Source: a virus. Taken from it: a DNA stretch of 29,366 bases. The stretch covers positions 1-29,366 of IMG/VR virus record IMGVR_UViG_3300050821_006184, one strand, 5' to 3'. The notes below the pieces were generated by a model. That model searched no databases. It saw only the letters and a program-made list of their open reading frames with translations, and was not told where the DNA came from. How positions within the stretch are numbered: position 1 is the stretch's first letter; each line of letters begins with the position of its first letter. Of this stretch, positions 3,478-28,677 are shown in pieces. The translations under genes were made by a program, and so were the position numbers.

Positions 3478-5286
3478 TTAATGTGAGGCAGTTGCTACGC
3501 CGACGATTGAGCCACTGGCCACAGTGAGTTTGTAACTTGGCCCCATGCCGATGGTTTCCGCCGTAGTGAACGTCAGCCCGGTGTCTGTGTAAATGCTGTT
3601 CGTTCCATCGCTTAAGGTGAACGTCGCCGCCGTAGCGCTAGTGATATATAACGTGCAGTTAAAACTATTCGTATTTGTCCAGCCGCTTGCCGCGACAGCG
3701 AATTGATTTGTGTTGTATGTTGTGAAGCCTCCATTCCTGCCACCCTGAATCAATGTGTTCGGGTCCATACTAAGAGTTACATGGACTGGGATGTTTGTCG
3801 CTTGGGTATTAGTTATAGCTCGCATCCCAACAGACCCCCCATAAGTTGCATCGGGGCATACCGTCAAAGTTTCGTAATTAGCTTGCGAATAGATTTTAAA
3901 AGACCCGACAGTTGAGCCTCCGCCATTGCCCCTTTGTATTGAACCAACAGTCAAGCCATATCCCAAAGCGTCGCCCTGTTCATTCTGAATAATCATTGTA
4001 TCCAGCCCATCGCTTTGCATAAAGAATAGTTTTCCGGGATTACCACTCGAATCAGATTGAACCGTAATCGAACCATCTGCACCGATGGCCCCAAAATACT
4101 TTCCCGTTGTGTCGCGTGTATATAGAGGCGCAGGATTAACTGTAATATTGCTGCCGGTAGTGATTGTTCCAACCGGAGGATATACAGACGCAGTATCGTT
4201 GGCATTTGTAATTGTTAATATCCAAAACTGACTCGTTGTATTGGAAATAATAATCTGGTCGCCCGGATGCAGTTGCGAAAAGGTGCTGCCGCTACCTTTT
4301 ATCCAGTCATTTCCATTGGTTCCAAAAATTGTTCCGTTTAAATTAGGATAAACATTTGAACCGTAGGTTGAGGAACTCATAATTACCGCATTAGTAACAA
4401 TTCCCGCCTTAATGGTTCCATTCACCATCACATTCCCAAACGTCTGCGTCCCGCCAAAGGTACCGCTTGCGTTGTAGAGGGGAACGTTGGTCGAGAGCCG
4501 CGCATCGGCCACCGTCCCGCTGCTGACGCTGCTGCCGTTAAGGGACGTCAATCCGGAGCCGCCCCCGATAAGCTGCTGCCCGGTCAGCGTATTAACGACG
4601 TATGAACCGTTGGTAGAACCCGTCGGCGCGGCTGTGCTGCTGGTTCCGTTGCCGAAGATGGTGTTAGCGCCCTGCGGCAGGAAGTTGCTGCCGGACAAAT
4701 TGGTCAGGCCGATGCCGTTGCTGTTCGCGAGAGCCGGAAGCAGGCCAAACTCATTATTCGTGGGGACGGTGCCACTGGAAATTGCCGAGGCGTTGAGGGA
4801 CGTAAGACCGCTTCCGTTCGTGTTCGCCAGTTGCGGCAATAATCCCGGAAGCTGATTCGTCGGCACCACGCCGTTAAAATAATTCGTGCTCGTCCAAGCA
4901 AAAATCCCAGTCTGCGTTACCAATCCCTGATACGCCGCCGCGTTCACTGTTCCGGTAAGCCCCGCTGGAAATCCACAGTTCGTATAAAACGTCGTGAAAC
5001 TCGCGTCGATTTCCAAAACGTAAACATAGCCCGCGAACAGATTCGTGAACGTGTAATTTCCGTTCGTATCGGTGACACCAACAATCGGCGTGGGAATTAA
5101 AAATTGATTCGTTGACGGATACAGGACTCCGGTGGGAGTGAACACGACGCGATCGCTGGCCGCTGGCAAACCCGCAAAGTTCGTTGCCGAAATGAGCGCG
5201 TTAAATTGTGTCTGCGCGATTGAGGATACCGCGCAGAACAGGTGCATGAAGATTGAGAAGACGACAAGTTTTACGGTGGGCTTCAT
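3478..5286 (-). CDS. Tail-fibre-like protein with Sec signal peptide, 602 aa
   Basis: The N-terminus MKPTVKLVVFSIFMHLFCAV|SSIAQTQ is a signal peptide with a SIA|Q site. Residues about 50-95 (TPIVGVTDTNGNYTFTNLFAGYVYVLEID) resemble a carboxypeptidase-regulatory-like/CnaB-type beta-sandwich. Residues about 155-270 carry repeats of GSGLTSLNASAISSGTVPTN and GSGLTSLNGSSVSSGTVADARL, a motif family common in phage fibres and bacterial surface proteins. The C-terminal half is Gly/Thr/Asn-rich beta structure (ADGSITVQSDSSGNPGKLFF) without a recognised chaperone or enzyme. It lies after the other fibre and before lysis genes, the usual place for receptor-binding proteins. A cleavable signal on a fibre is odd, because fibres normally assemble in the cytoplasm. 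Confidence 0.75.
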   Translation of the reverse strand: MKPTVKLVVFSIFMHLFCAVSSIAQTQFNALISATNFAGLPAASDRVVFTPTGVLYPSTNQFLIPTPIVGVTDTNGNYTFTNLFAGYVYVLEIDASFTTFYTNCGFPAGLTGTVNAAAYQGLVTQTGIFAWTSTNYFNGVVPTNQLPGLLPQLANTNGSGLTSLNASAISSGTVPTNNEFGLLPALANSNGIGLTNLSGSNFLPQGANTIFGNGTSSTAAPTGSTNGSYVVNTLTGQQLIGGGSGLTSLNGSSVSSGTVADARLSTNVPLYNASGTFGGTQTFGNVMVNGTIKAGIVTNAVIMSSSTYGSNVYPNLNGTIFGTNGNDWIKGSGSTFSQLHPGDQIIISNTTSQFWILTITNANDTASVYPPVGTITTGSNITVNPAPLYTRDTTGKYFGAIGADGSITVQSDSSGNPGKLFFMQSDGLDTMIIQNEQGDALGYGLTVGSIQRGNGGGSTVGSFKIYSQANYETLTVCPDATYGGSVGMRAITNTQATNIPVHVTLSMDPNTLIQGGRNGGFTTYNTNQFAVAASGWTNTNSFNCTLYITSATAATFTLSDGTNSIYTDTGLTFTTAETIGMGPSYKLTVASGSIVGVATASH

Positions 5287-5292
5287 GGCAGA

Positions 5293-6903
5293 TTAATGAA
5301 CAAGGATTTGACCTCCGACAATGCTGGCCCCATCGCCAGAACCGGCGCTGCGATTCGTGAATACATAGGTCTGGCCAATGGGAATTTCCATTGCCAGATA
5401 ATTGGTTTTTGAAACGGCGAGCGATGTAATCAAAGTTGTTTCACCGAATTGATTCGTTAAATATCCCGCCGCCTCAAGCGACATGCAGGCCGCGCCCGCC
5501 ACGCCCGTCTCAGAAAGCACGGCGTTTGCGCTCACGGTAATTACCACCGTATTAGTGTTGGTGTAGAGCTGGCCGGAAATGAAATTCGTTTGCGTGATAT
5601 TTATTAGATTCGTCAATCCGCCGCCGTTGCCGGAGAATGTTCCGGAGAATGTTCCGCTCCCGCCGCTTGAGGGTTGCCCGCTGGCAAAAAGCAAAATCCA
5701 AAGACTGACGGATGAATCATATTTGAACAATGCCCATGAGTTAGAGGACAACACCACATCTACGCCGGTGCCGGTGAAAATTCTGTTTGCAGCCGTTGCT
5801 TCAAAGCCGTTCTGATTTTGGATTGTCCATTGGAAGGATGTGGAGTTTTGGACGAAATTAAATTGGTCGTTGTTTGGCGCGGCGAATCCAGCGGTCGTGA
5901 AAGCGGCGGTTGGACCGCTCAATTTAGTATTGCAGTTGGTGCCAAGCTGAACATCCTGATTCATGCCGTTGGCTAATCCAGTATTATTGAAACGACTGAG
6001 AATTAATTCTGCATTTAAGGTGTTCGTTCCAGTTTCGGTTAAGCCGAAGCCGGTTCCGTTGGTCGATGGAATAAAAGCCGCCGTCCCTATCAGATTGCTC
6101 ACGGCGTAATTGGTCAGGCCAGAAGCATTTCCCCAAAACTTCGTCGCGCTGATATTTGCCGCATTCGTGATGTTTCTGATCGTGATAATATCTCCGGCGT
6201 CGTCGGTGAGAATATTACCCAAATCCAAACTGGTTGAACCGTCAACGATTAGTTGAGCCTGAACCGTTAACGTTCCATTGCCATCGGTAAAAATTCCCTG
6301 CGCTCCTCCGGTATCCAGAGTTGTGGCATTGGAAACATTCAGGGCACTTGCCTTCAATGTCGCCGAAAAGTATTTAGTGCCAGTAACCGTCTGGTTATTT
6401 CCCAACCCCACAAGCTGGCTTGCGATGGTTTTGGTCTGATCAATCGCATTCGTAGAGTAAGCATTCTCGTCCGCAATCAATCCACTCTCGACATTTGTGC
6501 GGCTGGCGATGTTGTAAACCGAAATCGGCACGACAACATTCGTCGAACCCCCGCCGCTGTTCGTCGAGAATGTCAGGCTCGCCCAAGTTCCGCTCGTGCT
6601 CGCCGTCAAACCGATTGCGGTAAAAACCAAATTCGTGATGTTCGTTTGAACGACGGTGACGCCATTGAACGGAACAACCGCGGCAACTACATTGTAAAGA
6701 TTCGTCGCATTCGCGGGCAAAGTGTTTGTAATCAGAACGAAGTTTGCGCTCGGCGTGTTGTTCGTCCAAATGAAAGTGACGCTGCCAATGGTGAGCGAAT
6801 TTCCATTGACCGGCGTATTCGTGATATTGAGGTTGCCGGTAACAGTCTGCGCTTGAATCGAAGCGCAAAACAAAAGAGCGAGAAGTGAGATTATTTTTTT
6901 CAT
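5293..6903 (-). CDS. Tail-fibre-like protein with Sec signal peptide, 536 aa
   Basis: The start is the ATG at 6903, overlapping the upstream TGA (ATGA), giving MKKIISLLALLFCASIQA|QT with an IQA|Q cleavage site. Thr/Asn-rich repeats follow (VTGNLNITNTPVNGNS). Later come short elements shared with the next fibre: NASGLTNYAVSNLIGTAAFIPSTNGTG and GTFSGTFSGNGGGLTNL. The C-terminus (about residues 440-536) is a compact beta-rich domain ending GDGASIVGGQILVH. Domain order is signal, beta-repeat shaft and terminal tip, consistent with a trimeric fibre. Function as a fibre is inferred from repeats and position; the signal peptide argues that it may be exported instead. Confidence 0.72.
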   Translation of the reverse strand: MKKIISLLALLFCASIQAQTVTGNLNITNTPVNGNSLTIGSVTFIWTNNTPSANFVLITNTLPANATNLYNVVAAVVPFNGVTVVQTNITNLVFTAIGLTASTSGTWASLTFSTNSGGGSTNVVVPISVYNIASRTNVESGLIADENAYSTNAIDQTKTIASQLVGLGNNQTVTGTKYFSATLKASALNVSNATTLDTGGAQGIFTDGNGTLTVQAQLIVDGSTSLDLGNILTDDAGDIITIRNITNAANISATKFWGNASGLTNYAVSNLIGTAAFIPSTNGTGFGLTETGTNTLNAELILSRFNNTGLANGMNQDVQLGTNCNTKLSGPTAAFTTAGFAAPNNDQFNFVQNSTSFQWTIQNQNGFEATAANRIFTGTGVDVVLSSNSWALFKYDSSVSLWILLFASGQPSSGGSGTFSGTFSGNGGGLTNLINITQTNFISGQLYTNTNTVVITVSANAVLSETGVAGAACMSLEAAGYLTNQFGETTLITSLAVSKTNYLAMEIPIGQTYVFTNRSAGSGDGASIVGGQILVH

Positions 6904-7535
6904 GCTATCACGTTCCATTGTTCCGAGCCGTCCGGGCCAATCGTCAATTGCCGAATCAATGCGCCTGATTGAAACTGAATCTGCTTATTTGGCACCGGCC
7001 CGATTTGAACGAAAGTATTCAAAGCATTTTGCAGGGTCAAATAAACCACTCCGGGCCCTGCCGGTGTCGGATTGCCGGGCACGTCCAGCGAAGGATAGAC
7101 GATTTGATCGGGTTGCGAACTTTGGAAAAGGGTTGTGCGATTTGTTCCGCCCGCTTGGAACATATCGAAGCAGATGTAAAATTGCAGACTCGCCGAGGTT
7201 CCCAAAGCTGCCAATACTCCCGCCGCACTCATGTTTAAAACGCCGGTAAAAAATGTGTTCGTCGGGTCGGGATTCATTGCGAGTGAAGTAAAGGAAGCTG
7301 GAGGTGCAGCCGCATTCGGAGCGCTCGCGCAACACACTAAATCCATTGACCAGCCCGCGAGCGATATGGCCTGCACGTATGCCGATGGATTTTGCGGGTT
7401 CGGAATTACCGGATAAACATTTATCGTCGGATTATCGAGGTAATAGAACGGCGGGATGGAAGTCGGCGAACCTTGATAGGAAACGAGCGTTTTTGTCGCC
7501 ACATTGAAATACAGATTTAGCGGGAGCAATGCCAT
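6900..7535 (-). CDS. Minor tail/baseplate candidate, 211 aa
   Basis: The protein begins MALLPLNLYFNVATKTLVSYQGS and is hydrophobic/Pro/Ala-rich with no signal peptide. It ends QFQSGALIRQLTIGPDGSEQWNVIA. The opening resembles the beta-rich N-terminus of baseplate upper or fibre-anchoring proteins. It is coupled by ATGA to the first signal-peptide fibre gene, so it may be that fibre's adaptor. No firm family is recognised. Confidence 0.6.
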   Translation of the reverse strand: MALLPLNLYFNVATKTLVSYQGSPTSIPPFYYLDNPTINVYPVIPNPQNPSAYVQAISLAGWSMDLVCCASAPNAAAPPASFTSLAMNPDPTNTFFTGVLNMSAAGVLAALGTSASLQFYICFDMFQAGGTNRTTLFQSSQPDQIVYPSLDVPGNPTPAGPGVVYLTLQNALNTFVQIGPVPNKQIQFQSGALIRQLTIGPDGSEQWNVIA

Positions 7536-7558
7536 TTGCGAAAAATGCGGTCAGTCAA

Positions 7559-8341
7559 TCAGGCGTGAAGAAAGGTAAATTGCGCTGAGATGTTGGCCTG
7601 CATTCCGTTGCTGGTTTTGGTCGGGCCGGGCAGACTAAATCCAATCGACATAACCATAAATGCGCCTCCAGCCGGAATAACGATGTTTGGCCCAGCTCCG
7701 CCAAGAATCTGATCGCCTCCGGTTATTGGCACTGACCAACCCTCGCTTCCAAATGTCGCCACATCTTGCAGGCCAACTTGAATTGACCCATTGGCAATCA
7801 CTGGTGTATCGCCTTGGCTAAAACCAACGACCGAATATCCGTAAGCCGATGACCATGTGCCCGGCTTCATAAAATAAAGGCTGCGCACGGAAAATCCAGA
7901 ACCGCGCGTGCAGCCAAATATCGACGCGCCGCCGCCAGGTCCAGCAATTAACATGCTTCCGGATGGATAATTATCCTGCAAATAGGAAAGCGTTGCTGCC
8001 CCGGAAATAAGATAGTCTCCCGTAAACCATGAACCGCCCGATACTTCTCCAGCCGTCGGATTTTGCGAACTGTAAGCAATGGGATTTATTACATTCATCG
8101 TCCCGCTATTCCCACCGAAAAGGCAGGACGCATTGATTGTCGGGTCGGCTGGATAACCAAAAACGCTCACGCCTAGAATTTGAAGTGAGGTCGCCTCAGC
8201 TTTGGTTGGGAATGAAGTTCCAGAACATTCGATATTGACCGTGTTACCAGCCAAGGTCGGCAGCATGTCCAAATCCTGCGCCGGACTTTGCTGGAAATCC
8301 TGTTCAGGCGATTGCAACGGATCGTTTGAATCTATAATCAT
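7559..8341 (-). CDS. Hypothetical tail protein, 260 aa
   Basis: The N-terminal 30 residues are acidic and Gln/Pro-rich (SPEQDFQQSPAQDLDMLP), probably flexible. The rest is a Gly/Ser-rich beta protein (GGNSGTMNVINPIAYSSQNP; AGPGGGASIFGCTRGSGF) ending MQANISAQFTFLHA. It has no signal peptide. It lies between the tail tip genes and the fibres, with an ATGA overlap to the upstream 204-aa gene. A role as a minor tail or tip protein is inferred from position only. Confidence 0.6.
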   Translation of the reverse strand: MIIDSNDPLQSPEQDFQQSPAQDLDMLPTLAGNTVNIECSGTSFPTKAEATSLQILGVSVFGYPADPTINASCLFGGNSGTMNVINPIAYSSQNPTAGEVSGGSWFTGDYLISGAATLSYLQDNYPSGSMLIAGPGGGASIFGCTRGSGFSVRSLYFMKPGTWSSAYGYSVVGFSQGDTPVIANGSIQVGLQDVATFGSEGWSVPITGGDQILGGAGPNIVIPAGGAFMVMSIGFSLPGPTKTSNGMQANISAQFTFLHA

Positions 8342-8952
8342 GGCGCACTCTGGTCAATCTTCCTCGCCCACTGCCGCGGAGGACCTTCTTCGAGATACGT
8401 TACGAGCGTTCCTACTGTGACGCCGCCATCCGCAGCAATCGTCTTGATGTTCACCGCCGCCGCCAGGGCCATCGGCATTTGAGAATATGAGATTTGGTCA
8501 ACCGGATTGGTGCAATAAACTTTCGTCACGCGCTGATATTCGGAGATGCCAGCACCGGATTTTGTCCGTGCCTGATATTTTAAAGCCACCGCCGATGGGT
8601 AGGTAAAATTCCAAATTGTGCCATCAAGCGTGGTTTCCGATTGGATGCTATTTCGCAAATGATACATCTTCGCCGCTCGTATCGTTGCTCCGGAAACCAA
8701 ATCTTTCAGGACGATGTAATTGTCATACACCGACAACAACGTTCCGACGAGCGTCGGCGATGATGGTGTGGAAACTTGCGGCGCACTCTTTTCCCGTTTC
8801 ACATTCGCGTAAATGCCGTCATGCCGATAATCGAAAGTCACCGTCGAACTGTCGCGCAACCGCCATTTTCCGTTACGCAACTTTTCGTGTGCCCATTGAT
8901 CGAAGACTGCTTCCTCATCATAACCGGTAGGTTTTAGCGGGTCGCTGTTCAT
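8338..8952 (-). CDS. Hypothetical minor tail protein, 204 aa
   Basis: The N-terminus is polar (MNSDPLKPTGYDEEAVFDQW) and the centre is beta-rich (LVGTLLSVYDNYIVLKDLVSGATIRAAKMY). The gene overlaps both neighbours by 4 bp, placing it firmly in the tail operon. Position after the tape measure and the 304-aa protein is where distal tail and hub-associated proteins are encoded in siphophages. No specific family is recognised. Confidence 0.6.
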   Translation of the reverse strand: MNSDPLKPTGYDEEAVFDQWAHEKLRNGKWRLRDSSTVTFDYRHDGIYANVKREKSAPQVSTPSSPTLVGTLLSVYDNYIVLKDLVSGATIRAAKMYHLRNSIQSETTLDGTIWNFTYPSAVALKYQARTKSGAGISEYQRVTKVYCTNPVDQISYSQMPMALAAAVNIKTIAADGGVTVGTLVTYLEEGPPRQWARKIDQSAP

Positions 8953-9863
8953 CGCTGTAAATAATCATCCGAGTTCCACCAGCCATACACATACTTCTGT
9001 GTGATGTTCAATCGGTTGTTTGCGGCATAACCCATATCCTGACGGCCCTTTTTCCAACCCCAAACATAATTGCCGAAAGTTATGGGGGTTGAGATGCTGC
9101 CAAGATAATTGATTTTGAAATAAAGGTATGAATTACCATTGACCGGCGTTGTCCAAATCTGGCCGTTGGTTATTTCGGAAAGCATCTCACCCGTGGTATA
9201 AATGTATCCGATGTATTCGTTCAAGGCGTCAGCCGCACCGCCAGCAATTCCGGTCCATCGATTCGGGATGTTGCAGGTGTGTTTCAGGACATAACCCGCG
9301 CCGACGTTGTCCCACTCGAATTCCGTGTTGCCGAGTTGGTAGCGAACGTAAGCGCGTTCCACGATGCCGCCAGAGAGCGGGGAAAGATCAACGTCATTGG
9401 AGCTTGCGGGCGCGTCAAAAGCTCCGTTAGGCGGCGTTGCAGCCGGATTATGGGCAGGCGTATTGCTGTTTAGATAGGCTAGGATTTGACCCATCTGATT
9501 TTCGGAAATCAAACCGGACAGGACACCCCAAACGGGATTGCTAAACAGATCCAATCGCGGTGAATCTCCTTCCAGTTCCCAAGTGTCAATCGGATTGTTC
9601 TGCGTCGCATCATCCGCCGTGATTTTCATCCGCCCGTTTTCAGTTTCAAACGAGACGGCGACGCCGTTCGCGTAAAACTGATTATACATCTGCACCATCG
9701 TATCGAACGAGATGCCGAGGATTTCTGTAAGAATCGTCGTGCCGCGTTGCGGGTCGCTCTTGACGGTTTGCTTTGAAATAATAGGCAGCGTCGTGCCGCG
9801 ATAAGCAGGCTTCGTAAAAAGCGGCAGGACATTATATCCGTTATTGTTGGTGGCGATTGGCAT
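8949..9863 (-). CDS. Distal tail/minor tail candidate, 304 aa
   Basis: The protein (MPIATNNNGYNVLPLFTKPAYRG...) has aromatic- and Asn-rich beta segments such as RAYVRYQLGNTEFEWDNVGAGYVL and a Trp/Tyr-rich end (YVYGWWNSDDYLQR). It is the first gene after the tape measure, where siphophages usually encode the distal tail protein. Its ATG overlaps the tape-measure stop by one base (TAATG). The role is positional; I see no diagnostic motif. Confidence 0.6.
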   Translation of the reverse strand: MPIATNNNGYNVLPLFTKPAYRGTTLPIISKQTVKSDPQRGTTILTEILGISFDTMVQMYNQFYANGVAVSFETENGRMKITADDATQNNPIDTWELEGDSPRLDLFSNPVWGVLSGLISENQMGQILAYLNSNTPAHNPAATPPNGAFDAPASSNDVDLSPLSGGIVERAYVRYQLGNTEFEWDNVGAGYVLKHTCNIPNRWTGIAGGAADALNEYIGYIYTTGEMLSEITNGQIWTTPVNGNSYLYFKINYLGSISTPITFGNYVWGWKKGRQDMGYAANNRLNITQKYVYGWWNSDDYLQR

Positions 9864-11419
9864 TAGTGTTTCACGGCTCCTGGACGCGGGGTTTTTAGAA
9901 CGGCGTGAATGCCTTTAAGTTCATGCAAGCTGGCGCGTTGAACATCGAGCATTCCAAAAACCGGCAAGCCGCCGATTTGCTGCAAGCTGTTTACTTTGCC
10001 ATGCTCGACTTTCATGCGCTCGTTGGCCAACTGCGCTTGCGCGAGTTCCGCCTCATCTTTGTTTTGTTGCGCGAATTTCTTTTGCAGATCGGGGATCGAC
10101 ATTCCGATGTCCGCCGCTTTCGCGCTGGCTTTGGCCGCTCCTGATTCGGCGTCCTCCTGCAGCTTGCGCTTGCGTTTGTTTTCCTCAACGATGTCCTGAC
10201 GGTCATGATATTGCTGAATGCGGCGTTGCGCTTCCTCGTCGGTCATGTCTTCCGCCGACTTCACCGCTGCGCGGCGTTCATCCTCGCCAATGCCGGTTCC
10301 AAATGCCCAGCCGCCGTATTGAATCGCCGCCTCTTTTTTTATCGCATCCCATTTCCCGCCGCCTTTGTCCAAGTGCATTTCGGCGGCGAGCGCGTTCGAT
10401 TGCAGGTCTTTCAGGTTGCGTTCATCTTCTGCGGCCGTAGTTGTCGGTTTTACCCGCATGGCTTCGGCAAGTTTATTCCTGGCTTCCAATTCCAAACTCA
10501 CTTTTTCATTATTGAGATTGCCCAATTCCGCCGCTCGTTCCTGCTGATTAATCGCCAGAATCTTCGCCTCTTTTGCGGCGGGATTACGTTCAAGCTCCGC
10601 GATTTTCCGCAGATGGTCGTAATGCTCTTTGGTGACGTCGGACACCCGTTTTGCGCGAGCTTCCGCCGAACCGTATTCCTCGACGGTTTTGCGCACGGCA
10701 TCCGTGATTTTTTGCTGCGCGTTCGCGGCGTCGGAAGTGTGACGGAGCAACTTGGGAATATAATCGTCTTTCAATCCGGGCAAATCCAGACCTTGTTTCA
10801 AAACGTTTTTCAAACCCCAAATGGATTCATAAGCGGTGAGTGCGGCGATGGCGATAACCGCAAGGGCGCTGCCGATCAAACCGAGGGCGCCCGCACCGGC
10901 GGCTCCCTCAACTTCGGAAGCAGCGGCGGCTTCCATGCTGGCCATTGCTTTGGCTTGAGTTGCTTTCGCATGTTGAATGGCTGCTGCTGCTGCTTCCTCA
11001 TCGGCAATGGCAACCTGCATGGCCGCTTCCGCGTCCATTTCTTCGGCTTCAAACGCCGCCAGCGATGCCCCTGCTTTGCGCGTGGCTGCGATCGCAGCGA
11101 GTCCCGCTTTCTGCGCTTGCAATTCCCAAGCGTCGGCCAAAATCCGCGCGGCGTTCGCCTGATTTCCGGTTAGTTTGGATAGCAGTCCAAGCCGGTCTAA
11201 AAGAATGGCGAATGAACCCGGAACGCGGTTCCAATTCCCTCGCGATATTTCCCGCAATAAAACCAAAGTCTCGCGAATTGCTCCGGAGCGAACATTTCCG
11301 CCGCCTTCAAGCCCCTGACGGATGTTGAGTCCAGTCTGATTGGCCATCCGTTGCACGGCGGCGAGTTCCCTTTTCATCGGGTCGGCGTTCGCGGAAATGA
11401 TCGCCCACAAAGCTGGCAT
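9863..11419 (-). CDS. Tape measure protein, 518 aa
   Basis: Ala/Glu/Lys/Arg-rich long helices cover most of the protein (e.g. KQNKDEAELAQAQLANERMKVEH). One hydrophobic stretch (about residues 172-192, GAGALGLIGSALAVIAIAAL) is typical of tape measures. The segment NWNRVPGSFAILLDRLGLL near the N-terminus also recalls this family. The protein sets tail length and plugs the tail tube; at roughly 1.5 angstrom per residue it would suit a tail of about 75-80 nm. At 518 aa it is on the short side (lambda gpH is 853 aa). It follows the chaperone candidate with a 1-bp gap, the canonical order. Confidence 0.85.
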   Translation of the reverse strand: MPALWAIISANADPMKRELAAVQRMANQTGLNIRQGLEGGGNVRSGAIRETLVLLREISRGNWNRVPGSFAILLDRLGLLSKLTGNQANAARILADAWELQAQKAGLAAIAATRKAGASLAAFEAEEMDAEAAMQVAIADEEAAAAAIQHAKATQAKAMASMEAAAASEVEGAAGAGALGLIGSALAVIAIAALTAYESIWGLKNVLKQGLDLPGLKDDYIPKLLRHTSDAANAQQKITDAVRKTVEEYGSAEARAKRVSDVTKEHYDHLRKIAELERNPAAKEAKILAINQQERAAELGNLNNEKVSLELEARNKLAEAMRVKPTTTAAEDERNLKDLQSNALAAEMHLDKGGGKWDAIKKEAAIQYGGWAFGTGIGEDERRAAVKSAEDMTDEEAQRRIQQYHDRQDIVEENKRKRKLQEDAESGAAKASAKAADIGMSIPDLQKKFAQQNKDEAELAQAQLANERMKVEHGKVNSLQQIGGLPVFGMLDVQRASLHELKGIHAVLKTPRPGAVKH

Positions 11420-11420
11420 G

Positions 11421-12044
11421 TTATTTTTCCGCCTTTCTTTCTTCGGCGATTTCTTTCATTGCCTGCGCCATTTCCTCGCGCACTTGGCGTTCGCGGTCGT
11501 TCTGGATTTTTATGCGCCCTTCTTTTTCCAGTTCGACAAAATACATTTGCAAAGCGAGTCCGTAGGGCATCTCATAAACAGTTTCGTAACCGAGCTTCTC
11601 GCATTTGTCGGCCATGAAGCAAAGCAATGCGGGCATCAAATCGCCGCCGAGCATTCTCCCTTTTTCCAAACCGCCATTGGCAATCGCATCTTCTTCCGGC
11701 GTTGGCATCGGCGGAGACGCGCTTCCTTCCTTCCGGTATTGGCGGAACGGTTCAACCGCCGCTAAAAACTCATCCCGCGAAAGTAGAAAGTTCCATGTGC
11801 GCAACCAATGCTGACGCCGGGCGTATTGTGCGTAAGGGCGCGAGCAAATGAGAACCGCCCGCATGATGGCGGAAATCCGATCGTTAAGGGGGAGAGCATC
11901 GAATTCAGCCGAGGAAAGAACCGCCAGCGCATTCCGTTCCGAGCGTAAAAGGATTTCGTGCCCGATGGAATATTTTTCCATCGGCAAGCGCAAAATCCTG
12001 ATTTGCTTTGGATGGGCTGCATCCACGAAAAGGAACTGATTCAT
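11421..12044 (-). CDS. Tail assembly chaperone candidate, 207 aa
   Basis: This soluble helical protein (MNQFLFVDAAHPKQIRILRLPMEKYSIG...) ends in a highly charged helix (REEMAQAMKEIAEERKAEK). It sits between the tube candidate and the tape measure, the fixed place of the gpG/gpGT-type chaperones that coat the tape measure. The N-terminal text LPMEKYSIGHEILL is the kind of short beta/helix start seen in such chaperones. I see no frameshift partner: one frame holds everything and the tape measure begins right after the stop. Confidence 0.6.
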   Translation of the reverse strand: MNQFLFVDAAHPKQIRILRLPMEKYSIGHEILLRSERNALAVLSSAEFDALPLNDRISAIMRAVLICSRPYAQYARRQHWLRTWNFLLSRDEFLAAVEPFRQYRKEGSASPPMPTPEEDAIANGGLEKGRMLGGDLMPALLCFMADKCEKLGYETVYEMPYGLALQMYFVELEKEGRIKIQNDRERQVREEMAQAMKEIAEERKAEK

Positions 12045-16581: not shown

Positions 16582-18807
16582 TTACTGCGCCGACGAATCG
16601 GTGGAAATGCAGACCGCCTGCGGATGCCGCAAGAGGAAATCGCCCCAGGTATTCATGTTGACCACGACCTCGGCATTCGCGGCTAGCGTGTAGAAATCGA
16701 CTACGATGTCGATGCCCGCCCACAAGCAATGCACAAAATGTTCAAAGGCGGCGGCGAGCATCTGATTGTTCGGGATCTGCTGGCTGTCGATAGCGGGCCA
16801 GCCGTTCAATCTTCCATCTTCCTCGCCTGTCTGGCCGACGCCCCGCCACAGTGCGGAATCGTAGCCGCTGACAACCGTTGAGGAGCCGGTCATCGTAACC
16901 GCTGCCGATTTCATCTTTCCCTTCGCGGTGCTGGTGGTAACATAAGCGAGAGCCTCCATGACATTCAGTTGTCGGATGGTTGTCTCGAAAAGAACAGTGT
17001 TCGCGTAGTTCGCAGCGCCGCCCCAAGTGATGGTTCCAATGCCATTTTGATTGAACAGCCCGGTCGGTTCGCTATTTGCACCTTGCCCGAAAATTCCCAG
17101 CGCATCCCATTTCAGGGCGAGCACTTTCATCATGTCATCGCGAATCAGGTTCTCGATGTCGGGCGAGGATTGAAAAACCAATTGCTTCGAGTAGGGAACG
17201 CGGTTGCCGACTCGGTGCGGAGTTGCGGTCAATTGGCCGAGCGTTTGCTGGCTGTTGGCAATCGCCTGGATTTCGGCGAGCGAATAGGCCGTCGAGGGCG
17301 CTTCGAGACGCGGCAGAATCACATTGCCGGTCAGGCCGGACAGCGTGCGCATTCCGACTTTTGACAGGACGATTTTGTTGCGCAACAATTCAATGACCGG
17401 GAGCAACCAGAACGTAGGCACCACGGCACCGCCCTGGCCGAATACGGTTGCCTGCATGTCGCGTTGCTGGAGGAAATCGCGCCCATACTGATTTACGAGC
17501 TTGCGATAATTGGACTTCGCCTCTTTTCGAGACATGCCCACATTTCCGATAGGAAATTCCCACGGCACAACGAATCCGTGGCTGTCAAAGCCCATGCCGC
17601 CGGGTTTGGCTTCGACTTCTTCACGATAAAAATTGATGACCTCACCTTCAAATGTTTTTGGGTCAGGCGCTAGGCCTCTGCCATCTTCCTGCTTGCGGAC
17701 GCATGACTGAATGGCGCGATGAAGTGAGAACGTGGCCATTTCTTCCTCACCTATTTTGGCGCGGATGCTTTCGTTTTTTTCCGGTTCTGCGGCGGAAATC
17801 GCTTCCAAACAACGCACCTTGAAATCCGGCACAGTAGAATCGGTCTGCAACGCCTCATTGGCGAGGGCGGAAAGTTTGTCGCGCAGCAGGATCACTTTGT
17901 CACCCTCGCGCAGTTCTCGATTGCCATGCTTGGCGATATGAGCATCGGCGACGGCGGTGAGTTCCTTCGCGCGTTCCTTGTAACTCTTGGCCGTGGCTTC
18001 GGCGGCTTCCCTCTTGATTTTCTCCTGGTCAACCGTTGGTTCAGTTTTTTCGGCCATAAGTTTGTGTCGTTTTAGAAATTTCTGTTTCTCGCTGTCGTTT
18101 AATTTTTCAAAGTCAACAGATTTGCTTCGAGCCGATGTAAAATGCCCGTCGCCATCGCATTCATGGCAATCGCCGGAGCCTTCGCAATCGGGACAATCTT
18201 CGTCTGCTTCATCTTCCTCTTTTGCGCGGCAGCGGCAGCGTCCGGTTCCGTCGCAGCGGCCGCAACGATGAGTTTTGGAACGGGTCAGAAGTTCGCCTTC
18301 GATTTCTTCGCGGCTGCGACCGATGCCCACGGAATCATCGGCGGGAGCGACGGTCAGGAGTGAAATTTCGTAAGGACGCCAGCTATACCAGCGGATTTGC
18401 AAACCTTCGGGACCGTCCTCCTCTTTCCGCAAAAGGCTCAAGCGAGAGTAGCCAACACTGACAGGAATTTCGGACGGCTCGTTTTTGGCGCGCGTAACCC
18501 ATGTGCCATCGTGAATGTGAATGTCGGCGCGGGTTTTCTTGTCAGCCTCAACTCGCGCACTGCCGCGAGCCACGTCGCCTATTTCCTTTTGGTCATCATG
18601 ATTTTCGAGAACGATGCCGTTGCGATTTAGGAAACCGAGGTTGGCATCACCAGCGGCGTGGGAAAGCACTTCCCAAAATTCCCCGCGCGAATCAGTCCGC
18701 TTTACGAGAGCTTCGCTTGCAAAAGACAGTCTTACCGTGCCGGCGACTTTGTTGGGATGCTGCTCGATTGCAGCGATGCGGTAAAATGTTTCGACTTTCT
18801 TTGCCAT
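16582..18807 (-). CDS. Prohead protease-capsid fusion with DnaJ-type zinc-binding insert, 741 aa
   Basis: I use the ATG at 18807 (MAKKVETFYR). Residues 1-160 are an HK97-type (U35) prohead protease: His70 in LENHDDQKEIGDV, Ser117 in IPVSVGY and Glu147 in YEISLLTVAPA form the likely triad. Residues 182-222 hold eight Cys: CGRCDGTG, a degenerate CRC, CPDCEGSG and CHECDGDG, i.e. three CxxCxGxG repeats as in DnaJ. About 235-345 is a charged helical scaffold (delta-like) region. From about 355 on comes an HK97-fold capsid protein (GGAVVPTFWLLPVIELLRNK and the N-arm before it). Protease, scaffold and capsid in one chain is known; the zinc region is not usual. A methionine at 251 could give a capsid-only product, though no Shine-Dalgarno is seen there. 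Confidence 0.85.
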   Translation of the reverse strand: MAKKVETFYRIAAIEQHPNKVAGTVRLSFASEALVKRTDSRGEFWEVLSHAAGDANLGFLNRNGIVLENHDDQKEIGDVARGSARVEADKKTRADIHIHDGTWVTRAKNEPSEIPVSVGYSRLSLLRKEEDGPEGLQIRWYSWRPYEISLLTVAPADDSVGIGRSREEIEGELLTRSKTHRCGRCDGTGRCRCRAKEEDEADEDCPDCEGSGDCHECDGDGHFTSARSKSVDFEKLNDSEKQKFLKRHKLMAEKTEPTVDQEKIKREAAEATAKSYKERAKELTAVADAHIAKHGNRELREGDKVILLRDKLSALANEALQTDSTVPDFKVRCLEAISAAEPEKNESIRAKIGEEEMATFSLHRAIQSCVRKQEDGRGLAPDPKTFEGEVINFYREEVEAKPGGMGFDSHGFVVPWEFPIGNVGMSRKEAKSNYRKLVNQYGRDFLQQRDMQATVFGQGGAVVPTFWLLPVIELLRNKIVLSKVGMRTLSGLTGNVILPRLEAPSTAYSLAEIQAIANSQQTLGQLTATPHRVGNRVPYSKQLVFQSSPDIENLIRDDMMKVLALKWDALGIFGQGANSEPTGLFNQNGIGTITWGGAANYANTVLFETTIRQLNVMEALAYVTTSTAKGKMKSAAVTMTGSSTVVSGYDSALWRGVGQTGEEDGRLNGWPAIDSQQIPNNQMLAAAFEHFVHCLWAGIDIVVDFYTLAANAEVVVNMNTWGDFLLRHPQAVCISTDSSAQ

Positions 18808-18886: not shown

Positions 18887-20695
18887 TTACGCACCTTCTT
18901 TTTCCGAATGTTCGTCCGTGTGGCCATTTAACTGCGCTCGTTTCGCTGCCTTGAATATTTCGCGTCTCCGCATCCTTCCATTCCCATTCTTCGGCGGATT
19001 GTCTTTTTCGTCCGGTTGCGGTTGTGTCTCGCCCGGTTCACCTTTCTTAATCGTGGCAAGGGTGACTTCTTGGTGCAAGTCAATGCCGTGCTTTTTGGCG
19101 ATTTCTTCCTCGCTGGAAAGTTCGGCAATGACTTCGCTGAAGTTGCGTCCATTCGGACTTTCGCGTAGAACTTCCCCGCGCGATTTGATGTTGCCCTCGA
19201 TGGCGATGAGGTCGGCTTGCGCGTCCTGCACCGGCTGGATGTATTCCCAACGTTGCGCAAAGAACTGTGCGGCTTCGCAAAATTCCTCATAGCGGGAATA
19301 GGGCAAATCTATGAGTGTTCCGTAAAGCATCTCGCATTCGAGCCATGCTCCAAAATATTCCTCCACGAAATTGAGAATCATCAGGTTTTGCTCGACGCGG
19401 AAGTTCTGGCGCTCAGGAACCTGCGCGGAGCGAGCCACGCTGAAAGACATTTTCTCAAAATCGCCGGTGGTAGCCGCATAACTCAGCCCGGCTCCGACGG
19501 AGGTCAACTCGCCATTGGATTTTTTGAAAGCAGTCGCAGCTTCAATCGGGAATTTCGGGTCAACCAGATATGGCTCTTTGCCCATGTCGAGCAGTTCGCC
19601 GGTCGCGGGTTCAACCATCTTGCGCTTGTCCGCACCGCCGCCGCGTCCATCGCCGACATTGCTGTATTGAAATTGCGCTCCGGCGATTGGCGCTCCGGTT
19701 ATATCATTCGTTGTAGTGGGATTGAAAAGCGCTGACGGGTCAGAAACATAAGGCATCCCCGTTGGATATTTCTGGATGATATAAAACGGCTTGGCGGCGC
19801 TCCAAATGGCGGCGGAAACGTGAGCGCGATCAAACTGGCGGTTCAAATGGAGATGCTGAATGATGCTGTCGAATTCAGGAAAGCCAATGTCCTGCTCCGC
19901 GCGGTCGCGCAGATTGTTGAAATGAATTATGTCATCGGCGGGGATGCGTTCCCGATTCACTTTGGGACGCGGGCCGACGTAGGAAAACACTTCTCCGGGA
20001 TGACGGGTCAAAATCCAATAGTAAATCGGGAAATTGTAAATCGGGTCGCGCTCGATGCTGAACCTTATCGGGTTTCCATCCAGTGATTTTCCCTCATAAC
20101 TTTCCTGCAAACGGTCGTTCTCAATCAATTCAATCGCATATCGGCTTTTGTTGTAAGGAAACATCCGATGATGACGCGCGAGAACCGAGCCGTCGCGTTT
20201 GATGGCCGTGTAGGCGCAATGGAACATTTCCATCCGGCTCATGTCGCGGCGCACCGTGCAATTCTTTTTCTTTCCCGCGCGTTCCCATGCTTCCTCAATG
20301 CGGTCGTTTAACTCATCATCGAATTCGATGATGCCTTTCGCCGTGCCTTTCTTTTTGACGCCCATTTCCAAACGGAATGGATCTTCGCCGCAAACGTTGT
20401 TGCGATAGGTGCGGTAGATGCCCTTCGATGTCGCATCATCTTTGGCGAGGGTTCGGGCGCGTCCGCGTCCGATGTAAATGCTGTTTAGGATTTCCGCGTT
20501 GGCGCTTTGAACCGTGGGAATGAAATCGAGGTTGAGATTGCTGGTAATCGCCGCCTCATACATGCGCTTCTGGCGCTGGTTGAATTCAACGTCCTCTTTG
20601 ATTGCCTTCGCGTGCCACGGCTCGACGATGGATGGTTTAAAAAGCTGCGCGCCGGTAGGAAAGTCTTTCTTGCGGGTGAAAAAGGGGATTCTCAT
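18887..20695 (-). CDS. Lambda-type (gpB-like) portal protein, 602 aa
   Basis: The ATG at 20695 (MRIPFFTRKKDFPTGAQLF) overlaps the upstream TGA as ATGA; a longer frame to 20842 lies inside the upstream gene. The sequence has the typical portal run: early helical region, RTYRNNVCGEDPF, FHCAYTAIKRDGSVLARHHR, IELIENDRLQ and the DIIHFNNLRDRAEQDIGFPEFDSI segment, which is the HxxxxxRxxQxRGxS-like block of the lambda portal family. The C-terminus (EKDNPPKNGNGRMRRREIFKAAKRAQLNG) is basic and disordered. It forms the dodecameric ring through which DNA is packaged. Position between gpW-like and protease/capsid genes agrees. The length is similar to lambda gpB (533 aa) with an extension. Confidence 0.87.
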   Translation of the reverse strand: MRIPFFTRKKDFPTGAQLFKPSIVEPWHAKAIKEDVEFNQRQKRMYEAAITSNLNLDFIPTVQSANAEILNSIYIGRGRARTLAKDDATSKGIYRTYRNNVCGEDPFRLEMGVKKKGTAKGIIEFDDELNDRIEEAWERAGKKKNCTVRRDMSRMEMFHCAYTAIKRDGSVLARHHRMFPYNKSRYAIELIENDRLQESYEGKSLDGNPIRFSIERDPIYNFPIYYWILTRHPGEVFSYVGPRPKVNRERIPADDIIHFNNLRDRAEQDIGFPEFDSIIQHLHLNRQFDRAHVSAAIWSAAKPFYIIQKYPTGMPYVSDPSALFNPTTTNDITGAPIAGAQFQYSNVGDGRGGGADKRKMVEPATGELLDMGKEPYLVDPKFPIEAATAFKKSNGELTSVGAGLSYAATTGDFEKMSFSVARSAQVPERQNFRVEQNLMILNFVEEYFGAWLECEMLYGTLIDLPYSRYEEFCEAAQFFAQRWEYIQPVQDAQADLIAIEGNIKSRGEVLRESPNGRNFSEVIAELSSEEEIAKKHGIDLHQEVTLATIKKGEPGETQPQPDEKDNPPKNGNGRMRRREIFKAAKRAQLNGHTDEHSEKEGA

Positions 20696-21336
20696 GTATT
20701 CGGAATAAAAGGATTCTGGATGCCGACACCGGGACCGCCGTAAGGAATGATATTGAACACCGGCACAATCTTGTTGCCGTTTGGACGGTTGTTTTTCGCG
20801 TTCTCCTGCGCGATCTCGTTCATGCGAAGCGTTTTGTTCCAAGCGAGTTGTTTCTCCAAGTCCATCCGTTTAATGCGCCGGATTTCTACCTGCTGAATGT
20901 TGGACTCATCAATCGAATGTGCGGCGAGTTCCTCCAGTTGCCGCTCCAAAATCGGAATCATCCGTTGCGCGTGAGTCGTCAGGTTTACCTGATTGGTATT
21001 CGTGCCGAGGTTCGGATTGATTCGGACATAATTTTCGTAAATGTTGTGCCTGAGATTCTGGCTATTGTTGACTACAAACCCTATGAGGACACATTCCCCC
21101 GATTGCCATGCCGCCGTTATCGCGGGCGTGACCGTGTAGGTAAAATAGGAATTTGTCGCGTCGGCAACCCCGTTGATTGTGATCGCCGGATTCGTCGGTT
21201 GATTCGCGCTGCGCAGCTCGTAATAGGAGGTCCAACCAGCGGACGGAAGAAAACAGGGCCAATATTTGGAAAAGCACAGGCTGTCGCCCGCCATGAATTC
21301 GAGCGGCTCTTGAGGAAAGTTATAAGAATCTGCCAT
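20692..21336 (-). CDS. Head-tail joining protein, Ig-like plus gpW-like helices, 214 aa
   Basis: The N-terminal 100 residues form a beta-sandwich-type domain (FMAGDSLCFSKYWPCFLPSAGWTSYYELRSANQ...VIGFVVN). Residues about 122-175 are the helical pair (THAQRMIPILERQLEELAAHSIDESNI, then VEIRRIKRMDLEKQLAWNKTLR) seen in gpW-type joiners. This combined layout recurs in phage genes located between terminase and portal, and gpW occupies that place in lambda. The C-terminal tail (NRPNGNKIVPVFNIIPYGGPGVG) is Pro/Asn/Gly-rich and flexible. It likely closes the portal after packaging. Confidence 0.7.
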   Translation of the reverse strand: MADSYNFPQEPLEFMAGDSLCFSKYWPCFLPSAGWTSYYELRSANQPTNPAITINGVADATNSYFTYTVTPAITAAWQSGECVLIGFVVNNSQNLRHNIYENYVRINPNLGTNTNQVNLTTHAQRMIPILERQLEELAAHSIDESNIQQVEIRRIKRMDLEKQLAWNKTLRMNEIAQENAKNNRPNGNKIVPVFNIIPYGGPGVGIQNPFIPNT

Positions 21337-21361: not shown

Positions 21362-23326
21362 CTATGCTCCAATCGAATACGTCGCCAAGCCATCCATGTC
21401 CATTCTCACCAGTCTCATGCAGACGAGGTCGAGGTAATGGTTTGGCCGGTTGCTGTTGATTTTGTCCCAAATGTCCTTGCCGTTTTTCTGTGTTCGCCAT
21501 TCCGAATTCAATTGCTGGTCGTAAGTGTAATCGCCGACTTCCTTCGCCTGCGTCTGCGGCGAAAGCATTTCGCGCCGTGCGGGAACGAGTTTCGGCATCC
21601 CCTCGCCGCCGATGCGCAGATTGAAAAGGCGCTCTTTGATTGTCGAATTTGACCAGCGATAAATCACCACTGGCACCGTGACTCTTTTTCCGTCCTTATC
21701 CAAGTTGATGAGCTTGGGATGACCCACGGAGTAGGATTTCCACGTCTTGTCAGGGTGCGGAAAGTTTCTCGCCTGGTCACCCATGAACGCTCGCCAGCAT
21801 TGCGCATACATAATCGGACGCCGCGTGTAGGGATGAATGCCTTGCACCATCTCGTAAAATTGGGCCATGTTGTCCAGAATGACCGGAGTCCATTTGCGGC
21901 AATCGACGCAGACGTAATGATTGGGAATCTTCCATTTCTTTTGAATCTCTCGCAGTTTTTCCCAGCCGGTGATTTCCTTGCCATCGGCGGATTTTTCTTT
22001 GGAGGATAAAAAGCCACGGTCCATCTGAAAGCTGTCGCCGCTTTTGTTGGCGATGTAAACTTCATACCAGAAGGTGCCGGGTTGATCGACGCCATCGGTT
22101 TCGATTTTTTGCACGTCAATAATCAGCCCGCGCGAATGTTCATTCTCGATGATGCTATTCGGGTCGTGACTGCCGATGGACGTTACAAATTTTGGTTGGG
22201 AAAGGGATTTGTCGTAGAACACCGCGCGTTCCGACATATACCAATCTTCCATCGGCGTCATGTTGCCCATGCGCTCCGCGTGTTTCGCGGTCAGGAAGGA
22301 CAGGACGGATTGTTCAAAACTGTTGTCGCGGGCTGCTTCTTTCGGATTATAAAAGCAAACTTTTTTCGGCGAGATGCCGTTGATTTTGTAATCCTGCCGG
22401 TAACTGTCCATTATCCGTTGGCGATTCTCTCGCGTATCGCGTATTTGTGTTCCGCAATGGTAACATTCCCATGTGGAGTTTCGGGCGCGTTCCTCAATCG
22501 TGCCTTCTTTGGGGATGGTCATGCCGCAGTAGGTGAGCGGTTTTGGCGAAGCGAATCCGTTGAACCTGTCGCAATCGGGCTTAAAATCTTCGGGCCGTGT
22601 CTGCGAAAAATCCCATTTGTTCATTCCATGACAGAATGGGCACGCCCAGGTTAAATCCACTCGCACCATTTCCTTGCAGCAACGGTCTAAATCCTCATCG
22701 GCGAGTCCAGCGCGGGATTCGATGTATATCTTTTTGTCATTGGGAAAGCGGTCGCTACGCTCGCGGGCCTTTTTCAGAAGTCCATCGGATTTATGCTGCC
22801 ACGATTCGCTTATCCAGATTATCGGCCATGAAAGTGTTGAGGTGTTTCCATCGTTCAATCCCATGACGTGGATGGTTACGCCCGCGACGATGATTTTTGT
22901 TTTGGTGATTTCATGACGGTCAACCTCTTTCAGCATCGTCTTTATCACGGGATGATTGCGAATTGTCATCATCAAACGAGCGTCGCAAAATTCCTGAGCC
23001 TTTTTGTCATCCTCGAAATAAATCGCCATGTTGCGGCCAACGTGCTCGATGATATAAGGAGTCCAGATATCGCCGCCGACTGATTTGAGGGTTTGGGTTC
23101 CGGCGATTAATCCGACTTCGCGCACGTTGGGATCTTGCAGGGCAAGCAATGGGCCGGTGAGGTGCCGCGCGGAGGCGATGTCGAAAAATCCGTCCTGCTC
23201 TTTCGGGAGTGCGTCGTAGGCTTTGCCGACGAGCCTAAATCGGCGAGCATTTTCCCAGATGGATCCACGGAACGTATTGCCGATTGCTGCGAATCCGGAT
23301 TTTAAAAGTGTGGCATCGGGTTTCAC
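21362..23326 (-). CDS. terL: Phage terminase large subunit, GpA type, 654 aa
   Basis: It starts at GTG (23326-23324), overlapping the upstream TGA (GTGA). A Walker A-like GTQTLKS (about 76-82), in place of the canonical GxxGxGKS, follows VREVGLIA, as in GpA-type ATPases with deviant P-loops. PIIWISES (about 168-175) is the Walker B-like strand. Cys clusters CPFCHGM and WECYHCGTQI form a zinc finger in the middle. RGLIIDVQKIETDG starts the nuclease domain, and NHYLDLVCMRLVRMD near the C-terminus matches the conserved NHxxDxxxYA-type motif. It cuts and translocates DNA with the portal. Length is close to GpA of lambda (641 aa). Confidence 0.9.
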   Translation of the reverse strand: MKPDATLLKSGFAAIGNTFRGSIWENARRFRLVGKAYDALPKEQDGFFDIASARHLTGPLLALQDPNVREVGLIAGTQTLKSVGGDIWTPYIIEHVGRNMAIYFEDDKKAQEFCDARLMMTIRNHPVIKTMLKEVDRHEITKTKIIVAGVTIHVMGLNDGNTSTLSWPIIWISESWQHKSDGLLKKARERSDRFPNDKKIYIESRAGLADEDLDRCCKEMVRVDLTWACPFCHGMNKWDFSQTRPEDFKPDCDRFNGFASPKPLTYCGMTIPKEGTIEERARNSTWECYHCGTQIRDTRENRQRIMDSYRQDYKINGISPKKVCFYNPKEAARDNSFEQSVLSFLTAKHAERMGNMTPMEDWYMSERAVFYDKSLSQPKFVTSIGSHDPNSIIENEHSRGLIIDVQKIETDGVDQPGTFWYEVYIANKSGDSFQMDRGFLSSKEKSADGKEITGWEKLREIQKKWKIPNHYVCVDCRKWTPVILDNMAQFYEMVQGIHPYTRRPIMYAQCWRAFMGDQARNFPHPDKTWKSYSVGHPKLINLDKDGKRVTVPVVIYRWSNSTIKERLFNLRIGGEGMPKLVPARREMLSPQTQAKEVGDYTYDQQLNSEWRTQKNGKDIWDKINSNRPNHYLDLVCMRLVRMDMDGLATYSIGA

Positions 23327-27701: not shown

Positions 27702-28677
27702 ATCTCTGCTTAAACACCTTGGCAATCCAATCGGCGAGGGTAGGCGGAATCTTGGCGATTTCAGCGGAGGCTTGTTTGCGGGCATTGGATTTACTGCCGT
27801 GCTTTTTCCCCAATACATTCTTTCCCAGCGGCTCCCCGGAAGGCGTGAAGGGGTTCACGCCTTCCGCTCCACAATCCCGGCTGGTGAATCGTGCCCCATT
27901 TCCGGGCGCAGTCCTGCGCCCGGACTCGCTTGGCTGCTTCACGCCATCACCCGCCTGGTTTCCCGCAATCCTCGTAAAATCCTGGCCCTTGATGCTCCGG
28001 TCCGACCAGTTCATCCCGGCGGTTTTGTTGCCTTCGGATTTTGCGCCGTTGTTCAAATACCGGTGAAAATTCGTTGCGCCTCCGGGCCGGTGGGCTATTC
28101 CGGGTTTTGACCCTTCCCAAGCATGGTCCGCATTGTAATTTTCCCGAGTCGTGTCCCAAGACCCTTCTGGCGTCTTGCATAATTTGCCCGGTATCGGCAT
28201 CAGCGCCGGAACATCGCCCCAAAGATAGAAACTCCCAAAATTCCACCGTGCTTTACCGACCCATCGCTGCGCTCCGCGCACGTTCTCGACGACCATCGGC
28301 ACATGATGCCCCACTGCGGCGATTACTTCCCTCTGAATCCGAAAACACGCATCGAAAAGCGCGGTCAATTCTTTAACGTCGCGTTTGCCTTCGAGATATT
28401 CTTTTTGAATCGCTTTTGCTTTGCTCCACGGCATCGCCATATAACTGAAAGCCTGGCATGGCGGCGAGCCAACAATGCAAGTCGGCACTCCAAATTCTTT
28501 TACCAAATCCGCGCCGTTCATCGAACGCATGTCGCGCAAAATCAATTCGCCGGGATAAACGCCGTTGCCGTAGTTGTGCGCTTCGATGTCAAATCCAATC
28601 GCGCGATAACCGTTTGCAATGAATGCTTCGCTCCAGCCGCCGAGGCCGCAGAACAAATCAAAGACAATCGGTTTCAC
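27700..28677 (-). CDS. DNA C5-cytosine methyltransferase, 325 aa
   Basis: It starts at GTG (28677), overlapping the ATPase stop as GTGA. Motif I is FDLFCGLGGWSEAF (SAM binding, residues 6-19). Motif IV is GSPPCQAFSY with catalytic Cys74, and motif VI is ENVRG (131-135). The C-terminus IPPTLADWIAKVF resembles the motif X region of phage-type enzymes. It methylates cytosine C5, probably for self-protection or regulation; the target site cannot be read from sequence. Residues about 243-283 are a Gly/Ser/Arg/Pro-rich insert encoded by two near-perfect palindromes. The protein is shorter than many bacterial enzymes (usually 320-450) and lacks a clear motif VIII. Confidence 0.87.
   Translation of the reverse strand: MKPIVFDLFCGLGGWSEAFIANGYRAIGFDIEAHNYGNGVYPGELILRDMRSMNGADLVKEFGVPTCIVGSPPCQAFSYMAMPWSKAKAIQKEYLEGKRDVKELTALFDACFRIQREVIAAVGHHVPMVVENVRGAQRWVGKARWNFGSFYLWGDVPALMPIPGKLCKTPEGSWDTTRENYNADHAWEGSKPGIAHRPGGATNFHRYLNNGAKSEGNKTAGMNWSDRSIKGQDFTRIAGNQAGDGVKQPSESGRRTAPGNGARFTSRDCGAEGVNPFTPSGEPLGKNVLGKKHGSKSNARKQASAEIAKIPPTLADWIAKVFKQR
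27837..27866. repeat. 13-bp-arm palindrome inside methyltransferase gene
   Basis: CGGAAGGCGTGAA (27837-27849), GGGG, TTCACGCCTTCCG (27854-27866) is a perfect inverted repeat with a 4-nt spacer. It is translated in frame as the sequence around AEGVNPFTPSG. TTCACGCC recurs at 27938-27945. Confidence 0.85.
27901..27924. repeat. 11-bp-arm palindrome inside methyltransferase gene
   Basis: TCCGGGCGCAG (27901-27911), TC, CTGCGCCCGGA (27914-27924) is a perfect inverted repeat with a 2-nt spacer, translated in frame as SGRRTAPG. It lies 34 bp from the first palindrome, so the block looks like one inserted palindromic unit. Confidence 0.85.

Follow-up and report, generated by a model that had tools for sequence, protein, structure and literature searches.

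A protease-scaffold-capsid gene with a cysteine-rich module

The window analysed here is a 29,366-nucleotide stretch of an uncultured phage contig (IMG/VR record IMGVR_UViG_3300050821_006184), in which the minus-strand gene at 16582-18807, with its ATG at 18807, encodes a 741-aa HK97-type protease-scaffold-major capsid protein. The product matches PHROG 617 'major head protein' over almost its whole length (E=6e-63), PHROG 4523 'major head and protease protein' over residues 19-324, and Pfam Phage_capsid (PF05065) over residues 459-733 (E=2.1e-21). Its HK97-type prohead protease domain occupies residues ~19-164 (18316-18753, minus strand) and contains the catalytic His70, Ser117 and Glu147, which are invariant in a 13-sequence alignment of homologues. 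A helical, delta-like scaffold region is assigned to residues 251-458 (17434-18057, minus strand) from where it lies with respect to the mature R4C capsid protein and from helices at residues 261-294 and 308-375 in a low-confidence full-length AF2 model (two sequences, pLDDT 34), and an HK97-fold capsid domain, the expected mature shell protein, fills residues 459-741 (16585-17433, minus strand; R4C capsid chain 8gta_A, E=4.6e-27). Upstream on the same strand lie the genes for a lambda-family portal protein (18887-20842; PF05136, E=3.6e-52), a head-tail joining protein (20692-21336; PHROG 5774, E=5.6e-14) and the terminase large subunit (21362-23326; Pfam GpA_ATPase, E=1.5e-13). With a prohead-protease His/Ser/acid triad, an HK97 capsid domain in the same chain and portal and terminase genes upstream, the locus has the traits of the fusion family, and it shares domain order, catalytic residues, capsid fold and these neighbours with the PHROG 617/NF045541 fusions of VP882, phiHAP-1 and R4C. 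The MD8-type arrangement, in which protease, scaffold and capsid are encoded by a single gene, has been described (PMC8508860). Elsewhere in the window there are a short match to C-5 cytosine methylases (27703-28677; PF00145) and a match resembling enoyl-CoA hydratase/carnitine racemase (1656-2138; PHROG 1128).

After the protease domain and ahead of the scaffold, residues 178-225 (18133-18276, minus strand) form an acidic module (pI 4.6) with the pattern CxxCxGxGxCxC-x11-CxxCxGxGxCxxCxGxGxF. Its eight cysteines, at residues 182, 185, 191, 193, 205, 208, 214 and 217, and the three catalytic residues stand in the translated gene exactly where the preliminary description had placed them. That description had also seen a DnaJ-type layout with one degenerate repeat, and this reading holds: three repeats are full (CGRCDGTG, CPDCEGSG and CHECDGDG), and the second is reduced to CRC, a CxC without the GxG. 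Among 20,000 composition-preserving shuffles, three CxxCxGxG motifs arose in none and one such motif in 16. Only one close relative was found in IMG/VR, the contig L002, which is 53% identical in its best segment and carries CxxCxGxGxCxC-x10-CxxCxGxGxCxxCxGxGxF at the matching site; pair-alignment, capsid-domain and portal scans for further close relatives returned nothing beyond L002 and a fragment that shares the portal, so that the fused module is represented by two sequences. Between these two, 8/8 cysteines and 6/6 motif glycines are identical, as against 9/31 of the other positions (Fisher p=6.8e-6). Because all 14 motif cysteines and glycines are kept while the remainder diverges, the motif is subject to selection in this lineage, and since a second contig at 53% identity retains every motif residue, an assembly artefact or chance can be ruled out.

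The affinity of the module was assessed at the level of profiles and folds. In isolation it scores 15.8 bits against PF00684, below the cut-off of 32.7, and 25.2 bits against DUF7895, for which the cut-off is 27. A profile built from 18 phage 8-Cys modules, the window copy included, and searched against the PDB matches the cysteine-rich domain of E. coli DnaJ (1exk, E=1.6e-6), anti-TRAP (3lcz, E=4.7e-5; 2bx9, E=3.7e-4) and DnaJA3 (2ctt, E=6.9e-4), with a weak match to the Q-like antiterminator 4mo1. The preliminary description had proposed a structure prediction and fold search, and here the profile matches to DnaJ and anti-TRAP bear out the DnaJ-type layout. The AF2 model of the module (short terminal strands, pLDDT 66, pTM 0.43) is too weak to argue for or against metal sites, and Foldseek gave no significant match with it (best E 0.11 in the PDB), although anti-TRAP, BSD2 and DnaJ-type domains were its top, non-significant neighbours. 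A true DnaJ insertion is ruled out by the sub-threshold PF00684 score and by the absence of a J domain, for which the 741-aa protein has no Pfam match at E<=1; the substrate-binding domains of DnaJ are likewise absent. With three full and one degenerate repeat, the module thus falls outside DnaJ (Hsp40) proper, and belongs to the DnaJ-type modules in the broad sense, which have ordered CxxCxGxG repeats with conserved cysteines and glycines. The Cys-to-Cys spacers of E. coli DnaJ are 14/19/11. The window module keeps the m1-m2-m3-m4 order and the cysteine and glycine positions of the DnaJ domain (PF00684; 1exk), but its spacers are shorter, at 6/12/6. Judged by its sequence, the segment is genuine: a compact cysteine-rich module of DnaJ type, which very probably binds zinc and most likely holds two zinc ions, the expected pairing in such modules being m1/m4 and m2/m3.

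Distribution of the module among head proteases

The preliminary description regarded a zinc module as unusual in the linker of protease-capsid fusions, and the survey of homologues agrees. Linker length varies among the fusions. None of the 19 cultured phages with such a protein has a CxxC anywhere in it, and the 8-Cys module is absent from all of another 41 full fusions, encoded in MAGs and bacterial genomes, two of which (the near-identical MAG loci L190 and L196) have a single CxxC at the module site. The module is therefore not a general trait of the family, and its absence from these 60 fusions indicates that it was gained in the lineage of the window and L002. Loss of the cysteines from related phages had been proposed as evidence against the module; distant homologues do lack them, but the close relative L002 keeps all eight, which marks the module as lineage-specific rather than spurious.

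Similar modules recur outside the fusion family. A motif scan of viral contigs for CxxCxGxGxCxxCxGxG-x(n)-CxxCxGxGxCxxCxGxG found that, among the matches listed, compact 8-Cys modules are common and reside mainly in small ORFs. Examples among these matches are ORFs of 49-136 aa in L015, L021, L031, L036, L048, L054, L059, L068, L072 and L107, which are made up for the most part of the module, lie in varied gene neighbourhoods and mostly have no known function; very large viral ORFs of 937-3090 aa in L033, L035 and L099 also contain embedded CxxCxGxGxCxxCxGxG motifs. A free-standing module is encoded between the terminase and the protease-capsid fusion in L068, and another downstream of the fusion in L062. 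Other free-standing modules adjoin integrase or recombination genes, so such a module is not a head-gene marker in general, and the proximity at these two loci is suggestive only.

Two viral proteins, in L027 and L128, place the module on a different protease. Both are unfused head maturation proteases (PHROG 80) of a family unrelated to the fusion, with the capsid protein encoded by a separate downstream gene, and both carry a full 8-Cys double module in an extension downstream of the protease domain. Two of the four members of this family have the module, and the other two (L174 and L175) do not. The L174 protein (4450-7554) has a different cysteine motif, CPDCGAKMVGGKCPKCDG, in its C-terminal extension, and L175 has neither this type of motif nor the DnaJ-type module. 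In the 1369-aa L027 protein (7745-11851), an AAA+ ATPase domain (PF00004, E=1.5e-18) separates the protease domain from the module; L128 gave no PF00004 match. Since most fusion proteases work without the module, as do two of the four members of the L027/L128 family, it must be dispensable to the general mechanism.

A predicted nested start and the probable fate of the module

A methionine directly follows the protease domain in nearly every homologue. Across the 51 fusions whose linkers differ, an in-frame ATG is always present no more than 70 codons after the protease, and a Shine-Dalgarno sequence of at least 4 nt precedes this nested ATG in 45 of the 51, compared with 41 of 665 other Met codons. 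After removal of near-duplicates, the Shine-Dalgarno sequence is found at 38/43 nested ATGs against 243/2967 (8.2%) in-frame codons of the same linkers, a contrast that is still large even though its p=4e-35 overstates the evidence, the homologues not being phylogenetically independent. The spacing peaks at 7-8 nt, and the control frequency of 8.2% rules out that the enrichment is an artefact of Glu/Lys-rich linker codons. Examples are found at residue 189 in R4C (L140), residue 356 in CRP-406 (L011), residue 404 in CRP-811 (L164) and residue 180 in L226. The Shine-Dalgarno sequence and ATG after the protease in 38/43 fusions imply that these genes also yield a nested, protease-less scaffold-capsid product. 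In phage lambda, the C/Nu3 overlap (Shaw and Murialdo 1980, as cited in PMC8508860) similarly produces a protease-less scaffold from a nested in-frame start, but the lambda capsid protein comes from a separate gene, whereas the product predicted for the fusion family would include the capsid domain. We found no description of a nested start in the protease-capsid fusion family in the open literature, of which our coverage was limited; the text of PMC8508860 nowhere uses the word 'internal'.

In the window, the equivalent of this start is probably Met251 (18055-18057, minus strand), which is the sole ATG, GTG or TTG between residues 218 and 299 and is conserved as M233 in L002. Neither codon is preceded by a Shine-Dalgarno sequence, which is uninformative because most genes of the window phage are without one. 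We infer that Met251 is used as a start in this phage. The distance from the end of the protease to the nested methionine is ~87 residues in the window and 72 in L002, compared with ~1-45 in the 51 fusions, and this stretched interval is filled by the module. Lying upstream of Met251 and M233, the module belongs to the protease arm, and most likely it rides only on the longer, protease-bearing product and not on the bulk of scaffold-capsid subunits.

The R4C homologue suggests what may become of the module. Its gene product has 629 residues, whereas the solved capsid chain (8gta_A) has 268; this chain aligns with residues 470-732 of the window protein and starts near the equivalent of residue 459. 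By this comparison the mature shell would consist of residues ~459-741, and the module should be cleaved away at maturation with the rest of the first ~458 residues, as the lengths and HK97 biology together suggest. In the R4C structure paper, searched for protease and cleavage wording, cleavage is not discussed.

Possible roles of the module in head assembly

Our best reading, held tentatively and with slightly less than even confidence, is that the module is a DnaJ-type zinc knob peculiar to this lineage, that it serves to dock or stabilise those prohead subunits which bear the protease, and that it is removed at maturation. This reading draws on where the module sits, on its reappearance in a second protease family, on the fact that most relatives do without it, as they would without an optional addition, and on the mode of action of BSD2/ZnJ2. 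Sitting between prohead protease and scaffold, the module would be confined by the nested start to a long protease form, with a short scaffold-capsid form lacking it; the zinc-stabilised knob would then hold or recruit protease-bearing subunits in the prohead, with scaffold, capsid or portal as putative partners, and would be destroyed along with protease and scaffold upon head maturation. The protease, scaffold and portal of lambda form an initiator complex (PMC3224144), and such a contact would fit naturally into a complex of this kind. The scaffold or portal binding site suggested in the preliminary description is close to this reading. It is also possible, although we consider it doubtful, that phages have repeatedly attached the module to head proteases as a targeting or assembly-control domain, which would single out the subunits with a protease from the protease-less scaffold-capsid subunits encoded by the same gene, zinc-dependent docking setting the place and number of the proteases in the prohead.

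Other roles are conceivable. The module might be no more than a passive linker, a zinc microprotein domain of a kind common in phages that was picked up through recombination and is tolerated because it sits where length varies among fusions anyway. Free-standing modules are indeed widespread in viral contigs and also occur beside integrase and recombination genes (among the matches listed), and the module is optional in the L027/L128 family, but retention of every motif cysteine and glycine while other positions diverge implies selection for the fold, and the repeated association with head proteases makes passive carriage unlikely. Alternatively, the module could shield or guide the scaffold-capsid part of its own chain, as BSD2 and ZnJ2 do for Rubisco. 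DnaJ-like zinc proteins without a J domain can prevent aggregation or serve as specific assembly factors (PMC5818400), and BSD2 is among the top, non-significant Foldseek matches. We nevertheless regard an intramolecular assembly chaperone as quite unlikely, given that 60 homologous fusions fold without the module and that most capsid chains would lack it if Met251 is used. The internal chaperone 'for the capsid protein' of the preliminary description cannot be kept in that wording: with a start predicted downstream of it, the module may be missing from most capsid subunits, and the protein has no DnaJ co-chaperone features.

The position directly after the protease domain could also suit a redox or metal switch of protease activation, for example one that holds back proteolysis until the prohead has closed. 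Against such a switch speak the reducing cytoplasm, in which phage heads are built, and the regulation of homologous proteases whose chains have no CxxC at all; we rate it as very unlikely despite the thiol-disulfide chemistry described for DnaJ-type zinc centres (PMC5818400, PMC4428491). To a nucleic-acid or host-factor binding element, contacting RNA, DNA or host RNA polymerase for instance, we assign the lowest probability: a phage Q-like antiterminator has a DnaJ-type zinc motif (PMC5313236) and is weakly matched by the module profile (4mo1), and a partial DnaJ zinc domain occurs in the DNA polymerases of HMO-2011-type phages (PMC9038755), but the acidity of the module disfavours this role.

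Several elements of the proposed knob have precedents. BSD2/ZnJ2 and anti-TRAP, the best fold and profile neighbours of the module, are small zinc domains that act through protein-protein contact; they are separate, stand-alone proteins with other partners, whereas the window module is fused to the protease-capsid chain. A phage protein with DnaJ zinc motifs set between its catalytic domains is the HMO-2011-type polymerase, but this is a replication enzyme with two motifs and no link to head assembly. DnaJ-type motifs in phage enzymes and protease-scaffold-capsid fusions are already known; of a DnaJ-type module on a prohead protease we found no description in the literature.

The module and the conserved nested start offer concrete parts by which phages with an all-in-one protease-scaffold-capsid protein might regulate how much protease enters the prohead and where, in that one gene would supply a long protease form with a knob and a short scaffold-capsid form. 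That the module turns up again in a second protease family, and by itself in phage microproteins, suggests that it is a reusable assembly part.
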